A stretch of 64,000 nucleotides of DNA from an uncultured Pelagibacteraceae bacterium (GTDB taxonomy: Bacteria > Pseudomonadota > Alphaproteobacteria > Pelagibacterales > Pelagibacteraceae), in the NCBI GenBank assembly GCA_902552805.1, contig CACDIC010000004.1, positions 1 through 64,000 of the forward strand, in the 5' to 3' direction. A program made the position numbers and the translations under genes. A model generated the notes under the pieces. The model did no database searches. It was not told where the DNA came from and saw only the letters and a list, made by a program, of their open reading frames with translations. This document shows positions 45,573-54,000 of the stretch, piece by piece (the first letter of the stretch is position 1; each line of letters starts with the position of its first letter).

Positions 45573-46835
45573 ATGTATAATTTAATTATCCATAAAGATA
45601 AGTCTTATAAAAACTTATCATTAAATAAAATTTTGAAATTTAAGGAAATTGATGGGAATTTTTGTATCATAAAAAAGAAGAGTAATGATTATTATATTTT
45701 TAGAGACCATTTGGGAACTAAAAAATTATTTTGGTTAGTTAAAAAAGGAAAAGTTTTATTTTCTGACAATTTTATAAAGTTATCAAAATTAGATAAATCA
45801 AATAAGAATATAAAATCTTTTAGATCTGGTTTTTTAACTATTTTGAAAAAAAATGGTAAAATTATTCACCAAAAAAAATTGAAAAGACCAAAAATTTATT
45901 TACCAGATAAAATTACAAATAAAAACATTTCCTCTTTAGTTAAAAACCGAGTTAATAGGTTTTTAAAAGCTTTAAAATCAAATTATGGTAATGAGGTTTA
46001 TGTTTGTTTATCTGGTGGCTTAGATAGCACAATCATTGCTTATCTAGCTTCTAAAATTTTTAAAAAAGTAACTGCAATTTCTTGTTCAATGATTAACTCA
46101 AACGATTATAAAAAATATTTAAAACATAATGATAATAATAAAAATTTTTTTTCTCAAGATTTTTTGATTGCAAAAAGGATTTCTGAATTGTTGGGTATAA
46201 ATTTTAAACCTATTATTTTTAACGAGAAAGAATGTTTGAAAGACTTAAAAAAAGTTATGTATTTAAGTCAAGACTGGAGAGATTTTAATGTGCATTGTGC
46301 AATTTTGAATTTTCAAATAGCTAAAAATCTAAAAAAAGATAGAAAGTATAAATCCCAACCAGTAATAACCGGTGATTTTATGAATGAATTTGTAGCTGAC
46401 TACAAGAGTGAAAAAATAAATAATAAACTTTACTACGAAATACCAATTAAAAATAAAAAAAGAAAACAACAGTTTCTAATTAATGGTTTAAAGAGTTCTG
46501 ATCGTGAAAATGGCATATTCGGTTGCTTTCAAATACCAAGTTTTCAACCGTACTCAATTGTCTCTAAAATTTTTGAAAATTTACCTGAAAATTATTTAAA
46601 TGATGAAGATGTTAAGTATAAAATTAATGGAAAAATAATTGATAAAAAATTATTAAACATAATTAACAAAAAAAAGATTAGAGCTCAAGTTGGAGGAAAA
46701 GGTGGGGGAATTTTAGGATCAATGATTAAAAATAAAATTGATCAAAAAAAACTAATCAAAATTTTTAATAAGAATTTTAAATTTGATGATCAGTTTTTAA
46801 AATCATTTATTTTTTTAGGAGATTATACAAATTAA
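45573..46835 (+). CDS. Asparagine synthetase/beta-lactam-synthetase-like ATP-dependent ligase with degenerate N-terminal glutaminase domain
   Basis: PP-loop VCLSGGLDSTIIAYLASKIF; N-terminus starts MYNLII rather than MCGI; residual FRDHLGTKKLFW. Confidence 0.72.
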   Translation: MYNLIIHKDKSYKNLSLNKILKFKEIDGNFCIIKKKSNDYYIFRDHLGTKKLFWLVKKGKVLFSDNFIKLSKLDKSNKNIKSFRSGFLTILKKNGKIIHQKKLKRPKIYLPDKITNKNISSLVKNRVNRFLKALKSNYGNEVYVCLSGGLDSTIIAYLASKIFKKVTAISCSMINSNDYKKYLKHNDNNKNFFSQDFLIAKRISELLGINFKPIIFNEKECLKDLKKVMYLSQDWRDFNVHCAILNFQIAKNLKKDRKYKSQPVITGDFMNEFVADYKSEKINNKLYYEIPIKNKKRKQQFLINGLKSSDRENGIFGCFQIPSFQPYSIVSKIFENLPENYLNDEDVKYKINGKIIDKKLLNIINKKKIRAQVGGKGGGILGSMIKNKIDQKKLIKIFNKNFKFDDQFLKSFIFLGDYTN

Positions 46836-46840
46836 TATAT

Positions 46841-48814
46841 ATGTGTGGAATTACAGGATTTTGTTACGAATTTAAAAATTTGAAAAATCCAATTTTAAAG
46901 ATTTGTCAAATGCTGGATTTGATTAATCATAGAGGCCCTGATAAGTCCAAAGTTTTTTGCTCTAATTTATATTGTTCGGGAACGGCAAGACTTGAGATTG
47001 AAAATATTAAAGAAGGTTCTCAGCCATATTTTGACAAAAAAGATGAAATTGTAATTAACTTTAATGGTGAAATATTTAATTATAAAGAATTAATTAAAAA
47101 ATATTTTCCAAATAAAGAGATAAAAACAGAAATTTTATTATTATTAGAACTTTTTAAAAAGAAAAATGTTTCATTTATTGATGAAATAGAGGGACAGTTT
47201 GCTATTTCGATATTTGATATTAAAAAAAATAAACTTTATTTATTTAGAGATCGTTTTGGAATAAGACCCTTATTTTACAAATATACAAAGAGTGATTTTG
47301 TTTTTGCATCTGAAATAAAAAGTATTTTTTCTTTTTATAACGAATCTAACAACACATCCTTTCAATCCATACTTAATACATCCATGTTATGGACAAACTA
47401 TGAAAAATTGTCTGCGTTTGAAAATATTTATCAACTAGAACCTGGATCATATCTTATTTTTCAACATGGTAAAATATCAAAGAAGAAATATTGGACAAAT
47501 TCAATCTATAAATTCAATGATAATGATAAAGATAAATCATACACTAATATCAAAAAAAATTTTTTAATTGATGAACTAAAAAAAGCTTTATTGAAACAAA
47601 TTCATGGAGAAGTTGGTTTTGCATCCTATTTATCTGGAGGTATTGATAGTTCTGTAATTGCTCTACTTTTAACAAGTATCACAAAAGAAAAAATTGATAC
47701 TTTTTCTGTTGAATTTGAGAATAATGAATATGACGAGAGTAATTCTCAAAAAAAAATTTCTAAATTTATTAATTCAAATCATAGATCAATTAGAATAAGC
47801 AAAGATGATATTGCTAATAATTTTGAAAATACAATAAATCACTCGGAAACTCACTTATTTAGAACAGCTCCAGTTCCGATGTATTTACTTTCAAAATTAG
47901 TAAAAGATAATGGTCATAAAGTCGTTTTTACTGGTGAAGGTGCAGATGAAATTCTGTTAGGATATGATATTTTCGCTGAAAATAGAATTAGAAGATTTTG
48001 GAGTAGAGATAAAAAATCTAAGTTAAGACCTCAATTACTTAAAAAATTATATCGATATCTTCCCCAATTTAAAAATTCAAGATATTTTGAAATGATAAAA
48101 GACTTTTATCTTAAAAATTTAGAGGACTCAAAAAATATTTTTTATTCTCATTTTGTAAGATGGGATCAATTTCAATCAATAAACAAGTTCTTTAATCAAG
48201 ATAAATCAAAAGGACATTATAATAAAGTTATTAAAGATTTTGACAATCTCTACTCCGATAAATTTAAAAATTTATCTTTTGATAGAAGAACTCAAATTTT
48301 AGAGATTGAAACGCTATTAACAAATTATTTACTTTCATCTCAAGGAGACAGGATGTCAATGGCTAATGGAGTGGAAGGCAGGTATCCTTATTTAGATGAT
48401 GATTTTTGCTACACCATCTCTCAAGTTCAGTCAAAATCAAAACTTTCAAACCTTAAACTTAAAAATTTACTTAGAGATTCTTTTAGTGAATTGCTTCCAA
48501 AAGAGGTTATTAATAGACCCAAAATCGCTTATCAGGCTCCTGAGGCTATGGCATTTTTTTCAGATAAAAAAAATCATCCTATAATTGATGAATTTATGGA
48601 TGATCTTAAACAAAATGATAATTTCAATACAGAAGCCTTTGAAAATCTAGTGTTAAAATTCAAAGATGCAAATATAAATCAGAGAATTGGATTTAGAGAA
48701 AATACCGCTTTTATAATTGGTTTATCGGATTTTTGTTTGAGAAAAAATTCAAAAAAATGGATTCATTTACCAAAAAAACAATATGATATCGATATTCAAA
48801 AGTATAATATTTAG
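46841..48814 (+). CDS. asnB: Asparagine synthase (glutamine-hydrolysing)
   Basis: MCGITGFCYE N-terminus, NHRGPDKSKV, FRDRFGIRPLFY, SYLSGGIDSSVIALL, GEGADEILLGY. Confidence 0.9.
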   Translation: MCGITGFCYEFKNLKNPILKICQMLDLINHRGPDKSKVFCSNLYCSGTARLEIENIKEGSQPYFDKKDEIVINFNGEIFNYKELIKKYFPNKEIKTEILLLLELFKKKNVSFIDEIEGQFAISIFDIKKNKLYLFRDRFGIRPLFYKYTKSDFVFASEIKSIFSFYNESNNTSFQSILNTSMLWTNYEKLSAFENIYQLEPGSYLIFQHGKISKKKYWTNSIYKFNDNDKDKSYTNIKKNFLIDELKKALLKQIHGEVGFASYLSGGIDSSVIALLLTSITKEKIDTFSVEFENNEYDESNSQKKISKFINSNHRSIRISKDDIANNFENTINHSETHLFRTAPVPMYLLSKLVKDNGHKVVFTGEGADEILLGYDIFAENRIRRFWSRDKKSKLRPQLLKKLYRYLPQFKNSRYFEMIKDFYLKNLEDSKNIFYSHFVRWDQFQSINKFFNQDKSKGHYNKVIKDFDNLYSDKFKNLSFDRRTQILEIETLLTNYLLSSQGDRMSMANGVEGRYPYLDDDFCYTISQVQSKSKLSNLKLKNLLRDSFSELLPKEVINRPKIAYQAPEAMAFFSDKKNHPIIDEFMDDLKQNDNFNTEAFENLVLKFKDANINQRIGFRENTAFIIGLSDFCLRKNSKKWIHLPKKQYDIDIQKYNI

Positions 48815-48822
48815 TATTTAAT

Positions 48823-49083
48823 ATGAAAAAAGATAAAGTTTCTGATTTATTAATCACATATCTTAAAAAAGGTAATCCGTCTTTAGATAAAATCAAAGAT
48901 ATTCCAATGGACCAATCTTTAGTCGAATTAGGTTACATGGATTCATTTGGAGTAATTGACACTGTAACTTTTATTGAAAATAAATGGAAAATTAAAATTG
49001 AGGATGAGGAATTAACCAAAGAAAAATTTGGTTCTATCAATAAAATGGTTAAATTAATTTGTCATAAAATTAACAAGAAATGA
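48823..49083 (+). CDS. Acyl carrier protein
   Basis: ELGYMDSFGVIDTVTFIENKWKIKIEDEEL: DS-containing phosphopantetheine site and acidic helix. Confidence 0.8.
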   Translation: MKKDKVSDLLITYLKKGNPSLDKIKDIPMDQSLVELGYMDSFGVIDTVTFIENKWKIKIEDEELTKEKFGSINKMVKLICHKINKK

Positions 49084-49835
49084 AAATTGATAAAAAAATT
49101 TTAATTCGTTTTGATGATATATGTGAAAATATGAATTGGGATTTTATGAATAGGTGTGAAGTTATATTTGATAAATATGATATAAAACCTTTATTAGGAG
49201 TCATACCTTCTAATCTTGACGATGATTTAAAAAAATGGCCAAAGAATGATAATTTTTGGGAAATGGTTCGTGCATGGCAAAATAAAGGATGGGAAATATC
49301 CATGCATGGTTATAATCATTTATATAATAAAGAGACTCACGGTCTTGATTATTTTGGTTATGGAGGCAAAACAGAATTTTTTGGAGAAAATTACGATATA
49401 CAAAAAAAAAAAATTTTGAAAGGTATTAAAAAATTTAATGATGAAAATATTCAGATAAGATCATTCTTTGCGCCAAGCCATACTTATGACATTAATACAT
49501 TTAAATCTTTACATGAGTCGGGTATTAAATATGTAATTGATGGATATGGGCTATTTCCTTATTATCAACATAAACTGATATTTATACCACAATTGTTTTA
49601 TAATTTAATATTTTTTCCTTTTGGCGTACAATCTACTCAAATTCACTTAAATATGTGGTCTGAAAAAGATATGAAAAAATTTGAAAATTTTATTATAAAA
49701 AATAAAAAAAATATTTTTTCATTTAATGAAATAATTAATCATACAAGTAAAAACAAAAGTGTTTTTATTATAAATTACTTATTAAAATTTGCTTTAAAAT
49801 TTATGAGAAGTTTTAAGAATAAAAGAAATGTTTGA
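49080..49835 (+). CDS. DUF2334-like polysaccharide deacetylase-fold protein
   Basis: ILIRFDDICENMNWDF, WEISMHGYNHLY, IRSFFAPSHTYD; 4-bp overlap with ACP. Confidence 0.7.
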   Translation: MKIDKKILIRFDDICENMNWDFMNRCEVIFDKYDIKPLLGVIPSNLDDDLKKWPKNDNFWEMVRAWQNKGWEISMHGYNHLYNKETHGLDYFGYGGKTEFFGENYDIQKKKILKGIKKFNDENIQIRSFFAPSHTYDINTFKSLHESGIKYVIDGYGLFPYYQHKLIFIPQLFYNLIFFPFGVQSTQIHLNMWSEKDMKKFENFIIKNKKNIFSFNEIINHTSKNKSVFIINYLLKFALKFMRSFKNKRNV

Positions 49836-49877
49836 AAATAGATGTTAAATCAAGTATTAAACAACTTCTTTTATATT

Positions 49878-49916
49878 GCCCTCGTGGTGAAATTGGTAGA
49901 CACAAAGGACTTAAAA
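49878..49916 (+). pseudogene. Displaced 5' fragment of tRNA-Leu(UAA)
   Basis: gccctcgtggtgaaattggtagacacaaaggacttaaaa, identical to the first 39 nt of the tRNA at 51985, diverging just after the anticodon. Confidence 0.95.
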
Positions 49917-49972
49917 AGTGTCGTGTTTTACTATTAAGATAATAAAATCAGCACTTCTAGTTAAAATCACTC

Positions 49973-49992
49973 TCGTGTAGTTCTCGTGTAGT
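49973..49992 (+). repeat. Paired TCGTGTAGT repeat, copy 1
   Basis: tcgtgtagttctcgtgtagt; identical 20 bp at 50807-50826; internal 11-bp periodicity. Confidence 0.9.
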
Positions 49993-50051
49993 CGGTGGAA
50001 GACACAGATTATAGACTTCACGATTAGTAAAAGTGTGATATTTAGTACACG

Positions 50052-50714
50052 ATGAAAAATATTAATTCAATCAGAAAAAAAGAAGCAGATAAATATTTTT
50101 TAAGAAACAAAGATTCTTTGTCTGTAAAAGATGAAAAAATTTTCAATTTAATTAAGATTAATTCTATTAAAGCAAATAATATTTTAGAAATAGGATGTGC
50201 TAATGGAAATAAGTTAAATCAATATTCAAAATTATGTAAATCTAAAAAAAGTTATGGTGTTGATTTATCAAAAAAAGCAATTTTAGATGGAAAACGAAGA
50301 TATAAAGATCTTAAATTGTTGAATATTTCCAGTATTGAGATTGATAAAATTAAGGTAAATTTTGATTTTATAATATGTGGTTTTTTTCTTTATCACTTAG
50401 ATAGAGAACTTATATTTAAACAATTTGATTTAATTCATGACAAATTATCAAAAAATGGACTATTATTGATATGGGATTTTGATCCACTATTTAAACATTC
50501 AAATAAAGATCATAATACAAATAAATTAAACACTTTTAAAATGAGTTATGATAATTTTTTAATAGAAAGTGGATTATTTGAAATTGCTTACAAACACAAA
50601 TATTTAACTTCAAAAGTAATTTATAGAGATAAAAAAAAATTTAAATCTAATAGTGTTTCTTTAACACTATTTAAGAAAATTGAATTTAAAAAAGAATACC
50701 CAGAAAACATATAG
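50052..50714 (+). CDS. Class I SAM-dependent methyltransferase
   Basis: NILEIGCANGNKLNQYSKLCKSKKSYGVDLSKKAI, FDFIICGFFLYHL. Confidence 0.78.
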   Translation: MKNINSIRKKEADKYFLRNKDSLSVKDEKIFNLIKINSIKANNILEIGCANGNKLNQYSKLCKSKKSYGVDLSKKAILDGKRRYKDLKLLNISSIEIDKIKVNFDFIICGFFLYHLDRELIFKQFDLIHDKLSKNGLLLIWDFDPLFKHSNKDHNTNKLNTFKMSYDNFLIESGLFEIAYKHKYLTSKVIYRDKKKFKSNSVSLTLFKKIEFKKEYPENI

Positions 50715-50806
50715 TTTATTAAAAATATATTTTTATGTATTATGTAAATAATTTTTTAATACACGAGTAATTTGTTGATTATTTGTATCTCTTTTCATAT
50801 TATAAG

Positions 50807-50826
50807 TCGTGTAGTTCTCGTGTAGT
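50807..50826 (+). repeat. Paired TCGTGTAGT repeat, copy 2
   Basis: tcgtgtagttctcgtgtagt, identical to 49973-49992. Confidence 0.9.
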
Positions 50827-50898
50827 TAATGAATTACAAATTACTTGAAAGATGACATCAAATAAATATAAGAAAATAAAGTTTATTGAATGTTTCAA

Positions 50899-50936
50899 AA
50901 CCAGTACCAAACCAGTACCTAAAGAGATAATATAAA
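50899..50936 (+). repeat. Tandem CCAGTACC repeat (11-bp phase), copy 1
   Basis: aaccagtaccaaaccagtacctaaagagataatataaa; aligns 30/38 to 51881-51918. Confidence 0.75.
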
Positions 50937-50940
50937 CCTC

Positions 50941-51513
50941 ATGAAACGCTTAATAGCATATATGTTCCTGGTTCTAGTTTTAACATTAAGTCCTCAATCT
51001 TGGACCAAGGCTAATGATATTGGTGAATTTGAGATAGAAGGAATTAGTATAGGCGATAGTTTGCTCGATTATTTTAGTATAACAGAAATAAATAAAGCTA
51101 TTGATGAATCTAAAGATGATAGAGTCTACAAAGTTAAAAGTTTTGTTGAGCAAAAATTTAAAATATACGACGCTGTCCAAATATCTTATAAAGCAAATGA
51201 TAACAAAAAAATTATAACAAGTATTGCTGGTGTTATTTCATTTCCAAACAAAATTGATTTGTGTAAAAAAAAGATGTACCAAATTGATAACGATTTAATT
51301 AATTTATTTCCAAGTGCTGTTAGAAAAGATTGGGGAAAGTATGATAATCATGATAATTCAGGGCATTATTTTCCTATCACTTTTTATTTTGATGACGCAT
51401 CATTGGCTATGGTCTCTTGTCATGATTGGAACAAAAGTACTAGAATTGATGACAATTTAAAAGTTTCTTTGTTTGAAGCAAAATATGCATCATATGTAAA
51501 AAATCAAAATTGA
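50941..51513 (+). CDS. Hypothetical exported protein
   Basis: N-terminal signal MKRLIAYMFLVLVLTLSPQSWTKA; no family recognised. Confidence 0.65.
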   Translation: MKRLIAYMFLVLVLTLSPQSWTKANDIGEFEIEGISIGDSLLDYFSITEINKAIDESKDDRVYKVKSFVEQKFKIYDAVQISYKANDNKKIITSIAGVISFPNKIDLCKKKMYQIDNDLINLFPSAVRKDWGKYDNHDNSGHYFPITFYFDDASLAMVSCHDWNKSTRIDDNLKVSLFEAKYASYVKNQN

Positions 51514-51522
51514 TATTAAAAA

Positions 51523-51867
51523 ATGTTTACTGCAAAAATAATTATAATTACTTTCTTATCAACATTCTTTGGTATATTTCTAGTACAATATCTTGAAAAT
51601 AAAGTTAAATATCAAAAGATCCTAAAAATTATTTTATTAGTATTTATTATTTTTTCATTTTACAATTTTATAGCTGGTTTAAGTATGAGTTTTGGTTGGG
51701 AAGACCCTTTGTCAAACACAAGTCCAGAGCAAAAAGGACGAGCTGCTGCTAGAAGAGGAGGTGGATTAGTTTTATTGATCATTAGTTTCTGGCCTTATAT
51801 TCTAACATTTGCTGGAGCATATATGAGTTGGTTATATTATATGCTTTTTAAAAAAATTAGTGCATAG
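51523..51867 (+). CDS. Hypothetical multi-TM membrane protein
   Basis: Three hydrophobic segments; 9 nt after the preceding ORF. Confidence 0.6.
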   Translation: MFTAKIIIITFLSTFFGIFLVQYLENKVKYQKILKIILLVFIIFSFYNFIAGLSMSFGWEDPLSNTSPEQKGRAAARRGGGLVLLIISFWPYILTFAGAYMSWLYYMLFKKISA

Positions 51868-51880
51868 GATAATTTAGAAC

Positions 51881-51918
51881 AACTGGTACTCAACTGGTAC
51901 CTAAGGAGATAAAATAAA
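51881..51918 (+). repeat. Tandem ACTGGTAC repeat (11-bp phase), copy 2
   Basis: aactggtactcaactggtacctaaggagataaaataaa. Confidence 0.75.
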
Positions 51919-51957
51919 AAAATTTTACTTATTCATCTTGTTCAATTATAAATATTA
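51915..51957 (+). repeat. Long direct repeat, copy 2
   Basis: taaaaaaattttacttattcatcttgttcaattataaatatta; see copy 1 at 44379. Confidence 0.85.
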
Positions 51958-51984
51958 GCATAAACACTCATGAAATTCACAAAT

Positions 51985-52070
51985 GCCCTCGTGGTGAAAT
52001 TGGTAGACACAAAGGACTTAAAATCCTTGCCGCTTGCGGAGTGCCAGTTCGAGTCTGGCCGAGGGCACCA
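51985..52070 (+). tRNA. tRNA-Leu(UAA), CCA encoded
   Basis: Acceptor GCCCTCG/CGAGGGC, anticodon loop CTTAAAA, long variable arm, TTCGA loop. Confidence 0.97.
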
Positions 52071-52077
52071 CTCATAG

Positions 52078-53007
52078 ATGAAACAATATTTCAGAGTAAT
52101 TCTCGGCCGACAACATAAACACTTTCAAGATTGTTTTGATGGAAAATTTGTTGGTGTTGGCTTCATACCAGATATAGATTTAAAAAATGATTTAGTAGAT
52201 GACTGGAGGGAGTTTAATAAAAAATTTATTCCTATCTATTTAAAAAGTAATCCTGGTGCCCACAAAGTGAAAGCTGGTTTAGCATGCAGTGCAATACATA
52301 CTGTTGCAAAAAGAATGAATAATGATGATTTTGTTTTATGTCCAGATGGGCAAAGAAATTATAAAATTGCAAAAATTTCAGGAGATTATTTTTATAACCC
52401 AGAAAAACCATCGATAGTTCATAGAAGACCTGTCGAGTGGTTATCTACTACGATTAAGAGAGATGAAATGAGTGAAGCATTAAGAAACTCTACAGGTGCC
52501 ATAGGAACAATTTCAGATATTTCAAAACACGCTGATGAGATTGAACAATTTATTAAAGGTGAGAGTCCAATTTCAATATCATCTAAAGATAAGGATATTG
52601 AAAATCCAAGTATGTTTGCTTTGGAAATGCATTTGGAAGATTTTTTAATTAAAAATTGGGAACACACTCCATTAGCACAAAATTATGATATTTATGAAGA
52701 CGAAGAAGTTTTGGGAAAACAATTCCCAACTGACACAGGACCGATTGATATACTTGCAGTGAGTAAAGATAAAAAGGAATATCTAGTTATAGAGTTAAAA
52801 AAGGGTAGAGCTAGCGATAGTGTTGTTGGACAAGTGCAAAGATACATGGGTTTCATTAAAGAAGAATTTTTAGAAGAGGGACAGCGAGTTAGAGGTGCCA
52901 TAATAGCTTTAGAGAACGATTTAAAAGTAAAAAGAGCTTTGAGTGTTACTAATGATATTGATTTTTATGAATATAAAATAAATTTTGATTTGGTAAAAAG
53001 TAAATAA
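52078..53007 (+). CDS. Probable PD-(D/E)XK nuclease: Mrr N-terminal-like domain plus NucS/DUF91-like C-terminal nuclease
   Basis: N-terminal part ...KIAKISGDYFYNPEKPSIVHRRPVEWLSTTIKRDEMSEALRNSTGAIGTISDISKHADEI resembles Mrr-type restriction proteins; C-terminal GPIDILAVSKDKKEYLVIELKKGRASDSVVGQVQRYM gives D...ExK. Confidence 0.72.
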   Translation: MKQYFRVILGRQHKHFQDCFDGKFVGVGFIPDIDLKNDLVDDWREFNKKFIPIYLKSNPGAHKVKAGLACSAIHTVAKRMNNDDFVLCPDGQRNYKIAKISGDYFYNPEKPSIVHRRPVEWLSTTIKRDEMSEALRNSTGAIGTISDISKHADEIEQFIKGESPISISSKDKDIENPSMFALEMHLEDFLIKNWEHTPLAQNYDIYEDEEVLGKQFPTDTGPIDILAVSKDKKEYLVIELKKGRASDSVVGQVQRYMGFIKEEFLEEGQRVRGAIIALENDLKVKRALSVTNDIDFYEYKINFDLVKSK

Positions 53008-53070
53008 TGATAAAATATGAATTGGTAGATGTCAGGGATTTATGGTCTACTTACAACTACCAACCACAAG

Positions 53071-53110
53071 AATGTGCATTAATGTGCATAAGTGTGCATC
53101 AATGTGCATT
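53071..53110 (+). repeat. Four tandem 10-bp repeats (consensus aATGTGCATt)
   Basis: aatgtgcatt aatgtgcata agtgtgcatc aatgtgcatt. Confidence 0.92.
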
Positions 53111-53169
53111 AAAAAAATATGAAGAAAATTAAAATGCTTGTAAAAACAAAACTATTGGGCTTGGGAGTA

Positions 53170-53227
53170 GACTTAAAATCCTTGCCGCTTGCGGAGTGCC
53201 AGTTCGAGTCTGGCCGAGGGCACCACT
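53170..53227 (+). pseudogene. Displaced 3' fragment of tRNA-Leu(UAA) including CCA
   Basis: gacttaaaatccttgccgcttgcggagtgccagttcgagtctggccgagggcaccact, identical to 52015-52072. Confidence 0.95.
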
Positions 53228-53229
53228 AA

Positions 53230-54000
53230 ATGAATAGGGTTCAAATCATATCTGACAAAAATCAAAGATCTTTAAAAATAAAATCAGCAATCCAAAAAAA
53301 AATTAATCAAAATAAAATTAAAAGATCCAATATTACAATTGTTATCGGGGGCGATGGTTTCATGCTTCAAACACTAAAAAAGAATAGAAAATTAAAAAAG
53401 TTTTTTTACGGTATAAATTCTGGGAGTTATGGATTTTTAATGAATAAATTTTCATCAAAAAATATCATAAGTAATTTGCATAAAGCAAAAATGATAACGA
53501 TCTCTCCGCTGGAGATGGTTGTTAAAAATAATAAAAATGAAACTAAAAAACATATAGCTATAAATGAAGTTTCGATTTTAAGACAAAGTAGACAAGCTGC
53601 GTCTTTATCTATTCATCATGGTTCTAAACAAGTCATAAAAAAACTTGTTTCTGATGGTGTACTAGTTTCCACACCTGCTGGAAGCACTGCTTATAATTTA
53701 TCAGTTCACGGACCTATATTAAGTTTGAATTCAAAAAGATTGTCCATATCTCCTATAAGTCCATTTAGACCGAGAAGATGGAAGGGCAAAATTGTAAGTG
53801 ATAAATCTAAAATAAATATCAGAAACTTAAATTCTATAAAAAGACCAATTTCTGCTGTTGCGGATAATATTGAGGTCAGGAATGCAAAAAATATTATAGT
53901 GAAAACTAATCAAAAAATTAAATTTAATCTTCTCTATGATAGAAACAGAAGTTTGCAAAAAAAAATCAAAATAGAACAATTGAGAAAAGAAACGTATTGA
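53230..54000 (+). CDS. nadK: NAD kinase
   Basis: IVIGGDGFMLQTLKK, INSGSYGFLMN, VSTPAGSTAYNLSVHGPIL. Confidence 0.92.
   Translation: MNRVQIISDKNQRSLKIKSAIQKKINQNKIKRSNITIVIGGDGFMLQTLKKNRKLKKFFYGINSGSYGFLMNKFSSKNIISNLHKAKMITISPLEMVVKNNKNETKKHIAINEVSILRQSRQAASLSIHHGSKQVIKKLVSDGVLVSTPAGSTAYNLSVHGPILSLNSKRLSISPISPFRPRRWKGKIVSDKSKINIRNLNSIKRPISAVADNIEVRNAKNIIVKTNQKIKFNLLYDRNRSLQKKIKIEQLRKETY

Follow-up and report, generated by a model that had tools for sequence, protein, structure and literature searches.

Cis-mobilizable elements (CIMEs) are integrase-less hitchers. The same way of life is described for clusters of attC sites lacking integrons (CALINs) and miniature inverted-repeat transposable elements (MITEs) (PMC11389934). 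Virion-encapsidated integrative mobile elements (VEIMEs) and tycheposons are presented, in the parts of the literature that cite them, as marine satellite-like or tRNA-targeting integrative elements (PMC11389934), tycheposons measuring 4-200 kb and carrying a tyrosine recombinase (PMC10872708). In the phage attachment site (attP) of cluster K mycobacteriophages, pairs of 11-bp arm repeats flank the core, and changes in the arms go together with changes in the integrase N-terminus (PMC3203893). In this study, we report small elements without an integrase at the tRNA-Leu(UAA) gene of an uncultured Pelagibacteraceae bacterium, in a stretch of 64,000 nucleotides (the window; positions 1 to 64,000 of contig CACDIC010000004.1, assembly GCA_902552805.1; 1.07 Mb, 22 contigs, 87% complete). 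Comparison with relatives and phages makes it likely that this gene is an integration hotspot used by two kinds of elements, and that elements consisting of an attP and cargo are mobilised there in trans by integrases matching their arms. No description of such elements was found in the literature searched, which did not include the original reports of VEIMEs and tycheposons or those on pelagiphage integration.

The intact tRNA-Leu gene (anticodon TAA) was located at positions 51985-52070 by ARAGORN; all features named here between 49878 and 54000 lie on the forward strand. A repeat search showed that 49877-49916 is identical to 51984-52023 (100%, 40 nt, including one base beyond the tRNA half), and that 52015-52072 is identical to 53170-53227 (100%, 58 nt, of which 56 nt are tRNA nucleotides 31-86, followed by CT outside the tRNA). 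The displaced 5' half (nucleotides 1-39) therefore occupies 49878-49916, the outer and oldest left end of the array, and the displaced 3' fragment (nucleotides 31-86) occupies 53170-53225. When the 86-nt gene was compared with the whole assembly, exactly three places matched (E 1e-39, 1.8e-23 and 2.6e-14; next best E 0.15), and exact repeats of 39 and 56 nt are far beyond chance. The sole overlap of the fragments is the 9-nt core GACTTAAAA in the anticodon loop, found at 49908-49916, 52015-52023 and 53170-53178. The fixed downstream neighbour, nadK (53230-54000; NAD_kinase_C E 2.6e-13), starts 4 nt past the displaced 3' fragment. Searches of open reading frames (ORFs) and protein families revealed no integrase gene between the fragments (49917-53169), and the whole assembly has only two tyrosine-recombinase ORFs (325 and 318 codons), both on other contigs and apparently XerC/XerD-like. 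An earlier note, made from the letters of this DNA alone, had claimed both exact duplications, their overlap in the anticodon loop only and the lack of an integrase between them, and these claims stand. The locus thus shares with a genomic island in a tRNA gene the regenerated tRNA and an exact displaced fragment, but the tyrosine integrase is absent from 49917-53169. A role of the displaced 5' half as a tRNA-like RNA was considered and dropped, because its fold with the following element sequence was not unusually stable (z 0.39, 2.25 and -1.13).

The tRNA was matched in 159 of 201 genomes of the genus, and among the regions fetched, 74 loci (window included) have an intact gene; nadK is visible in 71 of these. 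In 60 of the 71 loci the tRNA stands 3-12 nt before nadK, leaving the 3' side empty, which bears out the earlier suggestion that nadK ancestrally lay right behind the tRNA. The tRNA also adjoins nadK in the closest relatives by nadK (93% identity), G105 and G188, the former having a different 1.6-kb element upstream of the tRNA. Extra displaced 5' halves were found in 40 of the 74 loci, two or more of them in eight loci and three in L129. These halves lie 0.3-10.7 kb upstream, nearly always end at tRNA nucleotide 39-44 and enclose different small cargo, and a conserved right-end signature is present in 46 of the 74 loci. The relatives thus provide empty sites and differing cargo, and since 5' halves occur without a 3' fragment in almost all loci other than the window, the two sides appear to record independent events. 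The cargo of the upstream elements comprises 129 ORFs in 103 clusters, among them type IIG and type I restriction genes, an EcoRI-type methylase, MADS-like and transporter proteins. Some cargo is common to elements with different arms (L059, L062 and L124), which suggests that cargo or ends have been exchanged between elements.

On the 3' side, the relatives do not all share the three-copy arrangement of the window, the 3'-type junction being present in 6 of 399 genomes. Small integrase-less elements (C elements) occupy it in the window, G197, G343 and G398, and G343 repeats the plan of the window, with 5' halves, intact tRNA, a one-gene C element and the 3' fragment. A T7-like prophage in G072 has its integrase immediately followed by the 3' fragment and nadK, and this junction recurs in G376; GTGCAT repeats are common to these prophages and the integrase-less C elements. 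The inserts between tRNA and nadK in L040, L044, L051, L054, L063 and L067 lack a 3' fragment and were kept out of the C-type count. Several relatives hold a single gene of glycan type or for a methyltransferase in this position, again with no 3' fragment. Neither exact nor degenerate 3'-half patterns were found in IMG/VR, and no free 3'-type attP was recovered there, so that the 3' class rests on host genomes.

Of the two halves that the earlier note proposed to seek in attP sites of phages and satellites, the 5' half was found, in pelagiphages and in IMG/VR contigs. In the temperate T7-like pelagiphages HTVC105P and MedDCM-OCT-S35-C6 (Pelagivirus), a promoter-like sequence and tRNA nucleotides 1-43 come right after the integrase gene, an arrangement that reads as an attP with the 5' half. 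When such an attP inserts, the gene would be restored from the upstream side and the previous 5' half would remain farther upstream, which fits the observed pattern. These phages share the target gene, the core and the 5'-half attP with upstream promoter-like sequence, but they are 42 kb long with full gene sets, whereas the window elements measure 1-2 kb and have neither phage genes nor an integrase; the paired matching arms described below were not seen around the Pelagivirus attP. The exact 5' half was also present in 23 IMG/VR contigs, most of which code for a relative of one of the four integrases used as queries. One of these, L079 (7.8 kb), encodes a 545-aa integrase, a primase-helicase and a RusA-like protein, and has the attP at both ends, and so would be a circular or tandem form. 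That related integrase-bearing contigs occur in IMG/VR is no more than suggestive of packaging into helper virions, as in phage satellites. A further match to the attP signature, L153, was rejected as a chance match. Relatives of the L079 integrase are found at the tRNA in G168, G120, G201 and the single-amplified genome (SAG) AG-909-L14, and wider searches yielded few further integrases. Because the large integrase occurs in only 5 of 300 genomes of the genus, integrase-less elements are the rule at this site.

Three other arrangements were observed at or near this type of site. Pelagibacter phage HTVC200P (L077, 4001-4084) carries, between its integrase and a MarR-type gene, an unannotated sequence like a complete tRNA-Leu(UAA), with about 75% identity to the host gene; it may be an attP or a rescue tRNA. 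The IMG/VR contigs L082, L084 and L101 carry another attP type with the same tRNA 5' half and CGTAGTAG-like repeats after the core, unlike the classes described here. In L114 (G201), an integrase-less element with CCAGCAC pairs is followed, at the same tRNA, by one of 10 kb that encodes a distant large integrase.

The ends of the 5'-half elements share an elaborate anatomy. The left end consists of the 5' half, three AGTCT repeats, ATCCTATAAAATCCTATAA, a pair of tandem repeats spaced by about 11 bp, and GAGATAA; the right end, before the tRNA, consists of TTATAGGATTTTATAGGATAA, the repeat pair again, GAGATAA and a conserved promoter-like region. As TTATAGGATTTTATAGGATAA is the reverse complement of the constant left stretch, the ends carry constant inverted sequences. 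In all 26 elements with pairs detectable at both ends, the 9-nt units are identical left and right (26/26), against a unit match of 75/650 (11.5%) between different elements (permutation p 5e-5, the floor of the test). The pairs lie 161-167 nt from the start of the 5' half and, in 24 of the 26, 103-107 nt before the tRNA or the next half. The detector found pairs at 32/48 left ends and 36/48 right ends, compared with 1.7% of random segments. The variants include CTAGTAG, CCAGTAC, CTCGTAC, CTGGAGC and CTTGCAC, with 15 codes in 25 integrase-less elements. This attP, with an 11-bp-spaced repeat pair at each end, matched within an element and varying between elements, is new here, as is the coupling of the arms with the integrase N-terminal domain described below.

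All but one of the 26 matched elements (25) have no integrase, and the class keeps complete attachment sites without a recombinase. In integrase-bearing elements, the left pair lies inside the first codons of the integrase gene and a third copy is found further on; the right-end promoter region of the integrase-less elements differs from that of these satellites. Separately, a 267-bp element between a 5' half and the intact tRNA was observed in L138 (G077); it lacks cargo and has one arm pair only, as would be expected had its two end pairs recombined and dropped the cargo.

The pairs vary together with the N-terminal part of the large integrases. The L113 and L154 integrases are 52% identical before residue 130 and 93% identical beyond it, and their arms differ; for L095 and L097, also with differing arms, the values are 56% and 97%, and for L079 and L094, whose arms differ by one base, 76% and 94%. 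The same-arm control, L079 and L111, gave 94% on both sides, and the break in identity is sharp at residues 125-150. In an AlphaFold2 model of the integrase (mean predicted local distance difference test score, pLDDT, 78; predicted template modelling score, pTM, 0.43), the N-terminal domain has strands at 52-99 and a helix at 107-121. Foldseek matched the model to full-length lambda integrase and XerH and, over a shorter stretch, to the arm-type binding domains 3ju0 (root-mean-square deviation, rmsd, 2.0; template modelling score, TM, 0.64) and 3jtz (rmsd 2.4, TM 0.75; TM by target length). Given this coupled divergence and the arm-domain-like model, the pairs are most likely integrase arm-type sites bound by the N-terminal domain.

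We propose that the single tRNA-Leu(UAA) gene serves as a hotspot that would be cut in the anticodon loop at the core. The attP of 5'-half elements would comprise a promoter and tRNA nucleotides 1-39; its insertion would restore the gene from the upstream side, with the former 5' half ending up at the far end of the element, so that insertions would stack with the newest nearest the tRNA. The 3'-half elements would bring the core and nucleotides 31-86, rebuild the gene from downstream and leave the old 3' half before nadK. The large tyrosine integrase of the rarer, related satellite-like elements would bind the arm pairs through its N-terminal domain, and an integrase with an N-terminal domain suited to the repeats of an integrase-less element would mobilise that element in trans. 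In the window, the array would have formed from elements B and then A, fused by deletion, plus C, all of them integrase-less cargo carriers. The earlier note had inferred two recombination events in the anticodon loop, one restoring each half; both kinds of event are represented in relatives, in the pelagiphage attP and in prophages, but the upstream part of the window comprises two elements rather than one. Its further guess of remnants or elements mobilised in trans can be sharpened, since an integrase is usually absent from elements at this site, and the intact ones among them retain a complete attP whose arms come in pairs.

The window holds the remnants of at least three elements of about 0.9-1.2 kb each, two of the 5'-half type upstream of the tRNA (B and A) and one of the 3'-half type downstream of it (C), none of which encodes an integrase; no phage structural or replication families were matched by the ORFs of the window. 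The remnant of element B (49917-50826) has TCGTGTAGTTCTCGTGTAGT at both its left (49973-49992) and its right arm pair (50807-50826), and its left end resembles that of an element with CTAGTGTAGT pairs in L067. Between the pairs lies a gene for a 220-aa S-adenosylmethionine (SAM)-dependent methyltransferase (50052-50714; Methyltransf_12 E 1.1e-9). Element A (50827-51984) consists of a left arm pair, two cargo genes, a right arm pair and promoter-like sequence for the tRNA. Its left pair (AACCAGTACC AAACCAGTACC; CCAGTACC; 50899-50919), followed by GAGATAA, has the same repeat unit as integrase-bearing L154, SAG AG-909-L14. The cargo genes encode a 190-aa protein with a signal-like N-terminus (50941-51513), which matched no family and has relatives in elements of L049 and L140, and a 114-aa protein of no known family (51523-51867), from its sequence a putative small membrane protein. 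The right pair (AACTGGTACTC AACTGGTACC; CTGGTACC; 51881-51901) is unlike the left one, and the ends of A are therefore probably derived from two different elements. The promoter-like stretch TTGTTCAATTATAAATATTAGCAT (51938-51961), which the element would deliver with the 5' half, is nearly invariant in a right-end alignment of the 26 elements. Because about 50863-50960 is about 97% identical to the second element of L049, which retains its 5' half, the half between B and A, the left half of A itself, has probably been deleted, fusing the two. With differing arms and the left 5' half of A gone, the upstream array has probably lost its mobility as a unit, and the window represents an eroded example of a common class.

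Element C (about 1.1 kb; 52071-53169) lies between the two exact copies of nucleotides 31-86. Its single gene (52078-53007) encodes a 309-aa protein with a NucS-type nuclease C-terminus (NucS_C E 4e-8) that matches the PADLOC candidate defence family PDC-S02 over its full length (E 2.6e-135); a scan of IMG/VR revealed no relatives of it. The gene is followed by a stretch resembling the D arm and anticodon stem of tRNA-Leu (GAATTGGTAGATGTCAGGGATTTATGGTCTAC...; GAATTGGTAGACGTCAAGGACTTATGGTCTACC; 53019-53064), common to integrase-less C elements (L163, L164 and L059), and then by four GTGCAT repeats 10 bp apart (53074-53109), which are putative arm sites and have similar repeats beside the prophage integrase in G072 and G376. 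The intact tRNA would accordingly owe nucleotides 1-39 to element A and nucleotides 31-86 to element C. Asparagine-synthase-like, carrier-protein-like and DUF2334 deacetylase genes were observed at 45573-49835, directly upstream of the oldest 5' half, so that the array abuts a region of surface-glycan type.

Several points weigh against mobilisation in trans through matched arms. No excision or transfer was observed; 22 of 48 elements have no detectable pair at one or both ends, and element A of the window itself has mismatched ends and no left 5' half. Integrase-bearing and integrase-less elements share 3 of 6 arm codes, which is not significant (null probability of three or more about 0.41); sharing at this level is expected from a small code alphabet and is not relied on here. 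Only four pairs of integrases were compared, Foldseek matched the two arm-domain entries with weak E-values (0.06 and 0.15), and gene conversion between the end repeats of about 35 bp could also keep the ends alike.

The elements might instead be dead remnants only, left immobile after prophages or satellites at the tRNA had lost their integrase and most genes through deletion bias. Integrase-bearing satellites and prophages do occupy the same site, and the fused B/A boundary, the mismatched arms of A and the cargo-less L138 element are what such decay would produce. We nevertheless regard this as unlikely, since random decay would not preserve the matching of the two ends: a complete, uniformly spaced attP with perfectly matched arms is kept although nearly all matched elements are without an integrase. 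The cargo, moreover, is varied and consists of single genes or operons, and the right-end promoter region is unlike that of the satellites from which the remnants would descend. It is more doubtful still that the repeat pairs are promoters, or replication or packaging sites of a helper phage, rather than arm sites. In integrase-less elements the left pair does lie a short way upstream of the first cargo gene, and the GAGATAA after it looks like a ribosome-binding or initiation region; but the pairs stand on either side of the core at nearly constant distances, as lambda-type arms do, lie within the start of the integrase gene in integrase-bearing elements, where a third copy follows, and change together with an integrase domain that resembles arm-type binding domains. 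Finally, one element with its own complete tRNA-Leu could have split the host gene, the outer fragments being the original halves and the middle copy cargo. The two fragments would indeed form one gene with a 9-bp overlap, and HTVC200P shows that a complete tRNA-Leu(UAA)-like sequence can stand beside an integrase. This history is highly improbable, being contradicted by the one-fragment relatives: a 5' fragment without a 3' fragment is usual, two or three 5' halves occur, the intact gene adjoins nadK in most relatives, and the elements on the two sides differ in end structures and repeats.

Mobilisation of arm-matched elements in trans therefore remains our preferred explanation, and it places the locus beside, but apart from, the known systems. 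With CALINs, MITEs and CIMEs, the elements share recombination sites at both ends, the lack of a recombinase and a presumed reliance on an enzyme acting in trans; they differ from CALINs and MITEs in being a tRNA-targeted attP with arm sites instead of an attC cassette or transposon end, and in having arm sequences that vary like an address. VEIMEs and tycheposons, as far as second-hand accounts describe them, likewise target tRNA genes and carry cargo in streamlined marine bacteria, and L079 resembles such satellites; the window elements, by comparison, are below 4 kb and have no recombinase or replication genes. The arm pairs around a core, changing together with the integrase N-terminus, recall cluster K phages, but two residue changes separate close relatives there (PMC3203893), whereas here the whole N-terminal domain (residues 1-130) differs while the rest is 93-97% identical, and most elements have no integrase. 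The relatives, with their matched pairs, coupled N-terminal divergence and arm-domain-like model, are suggestive of a lambda-type attP, although the window's A pairs do not match.

If this explanation is correct, the locus would provide naturally varied material, with arm specificity and arm sites of integrases changing together against a constant catalytic part and target; the arm-recognition code of tyrosine integrases would become open to direct test and of use for orthogonal integration tools. SAR11 cells rank with the most abundant on Earth, and gene exchange in their streamlined genomes is, to our knowledge, poorly known. One tRNA gene would then constitute a defined, readable port for small cargo, including restriction-modification, a candidate defence nuclease, transporters and surface functions, and the order of the array would record the succession of arrivals on the 5' side. 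We give even chances to the broader idea that SAR11 shares a communal pool of minimal carriers, each with little besides an attP, a promoter for its essential target tRNA and one or a few accessory or defence genes, whose arm pairs would act as an address code choosing the helper integrase, and in which the code would be changed by exchange of the N-terminal domain.

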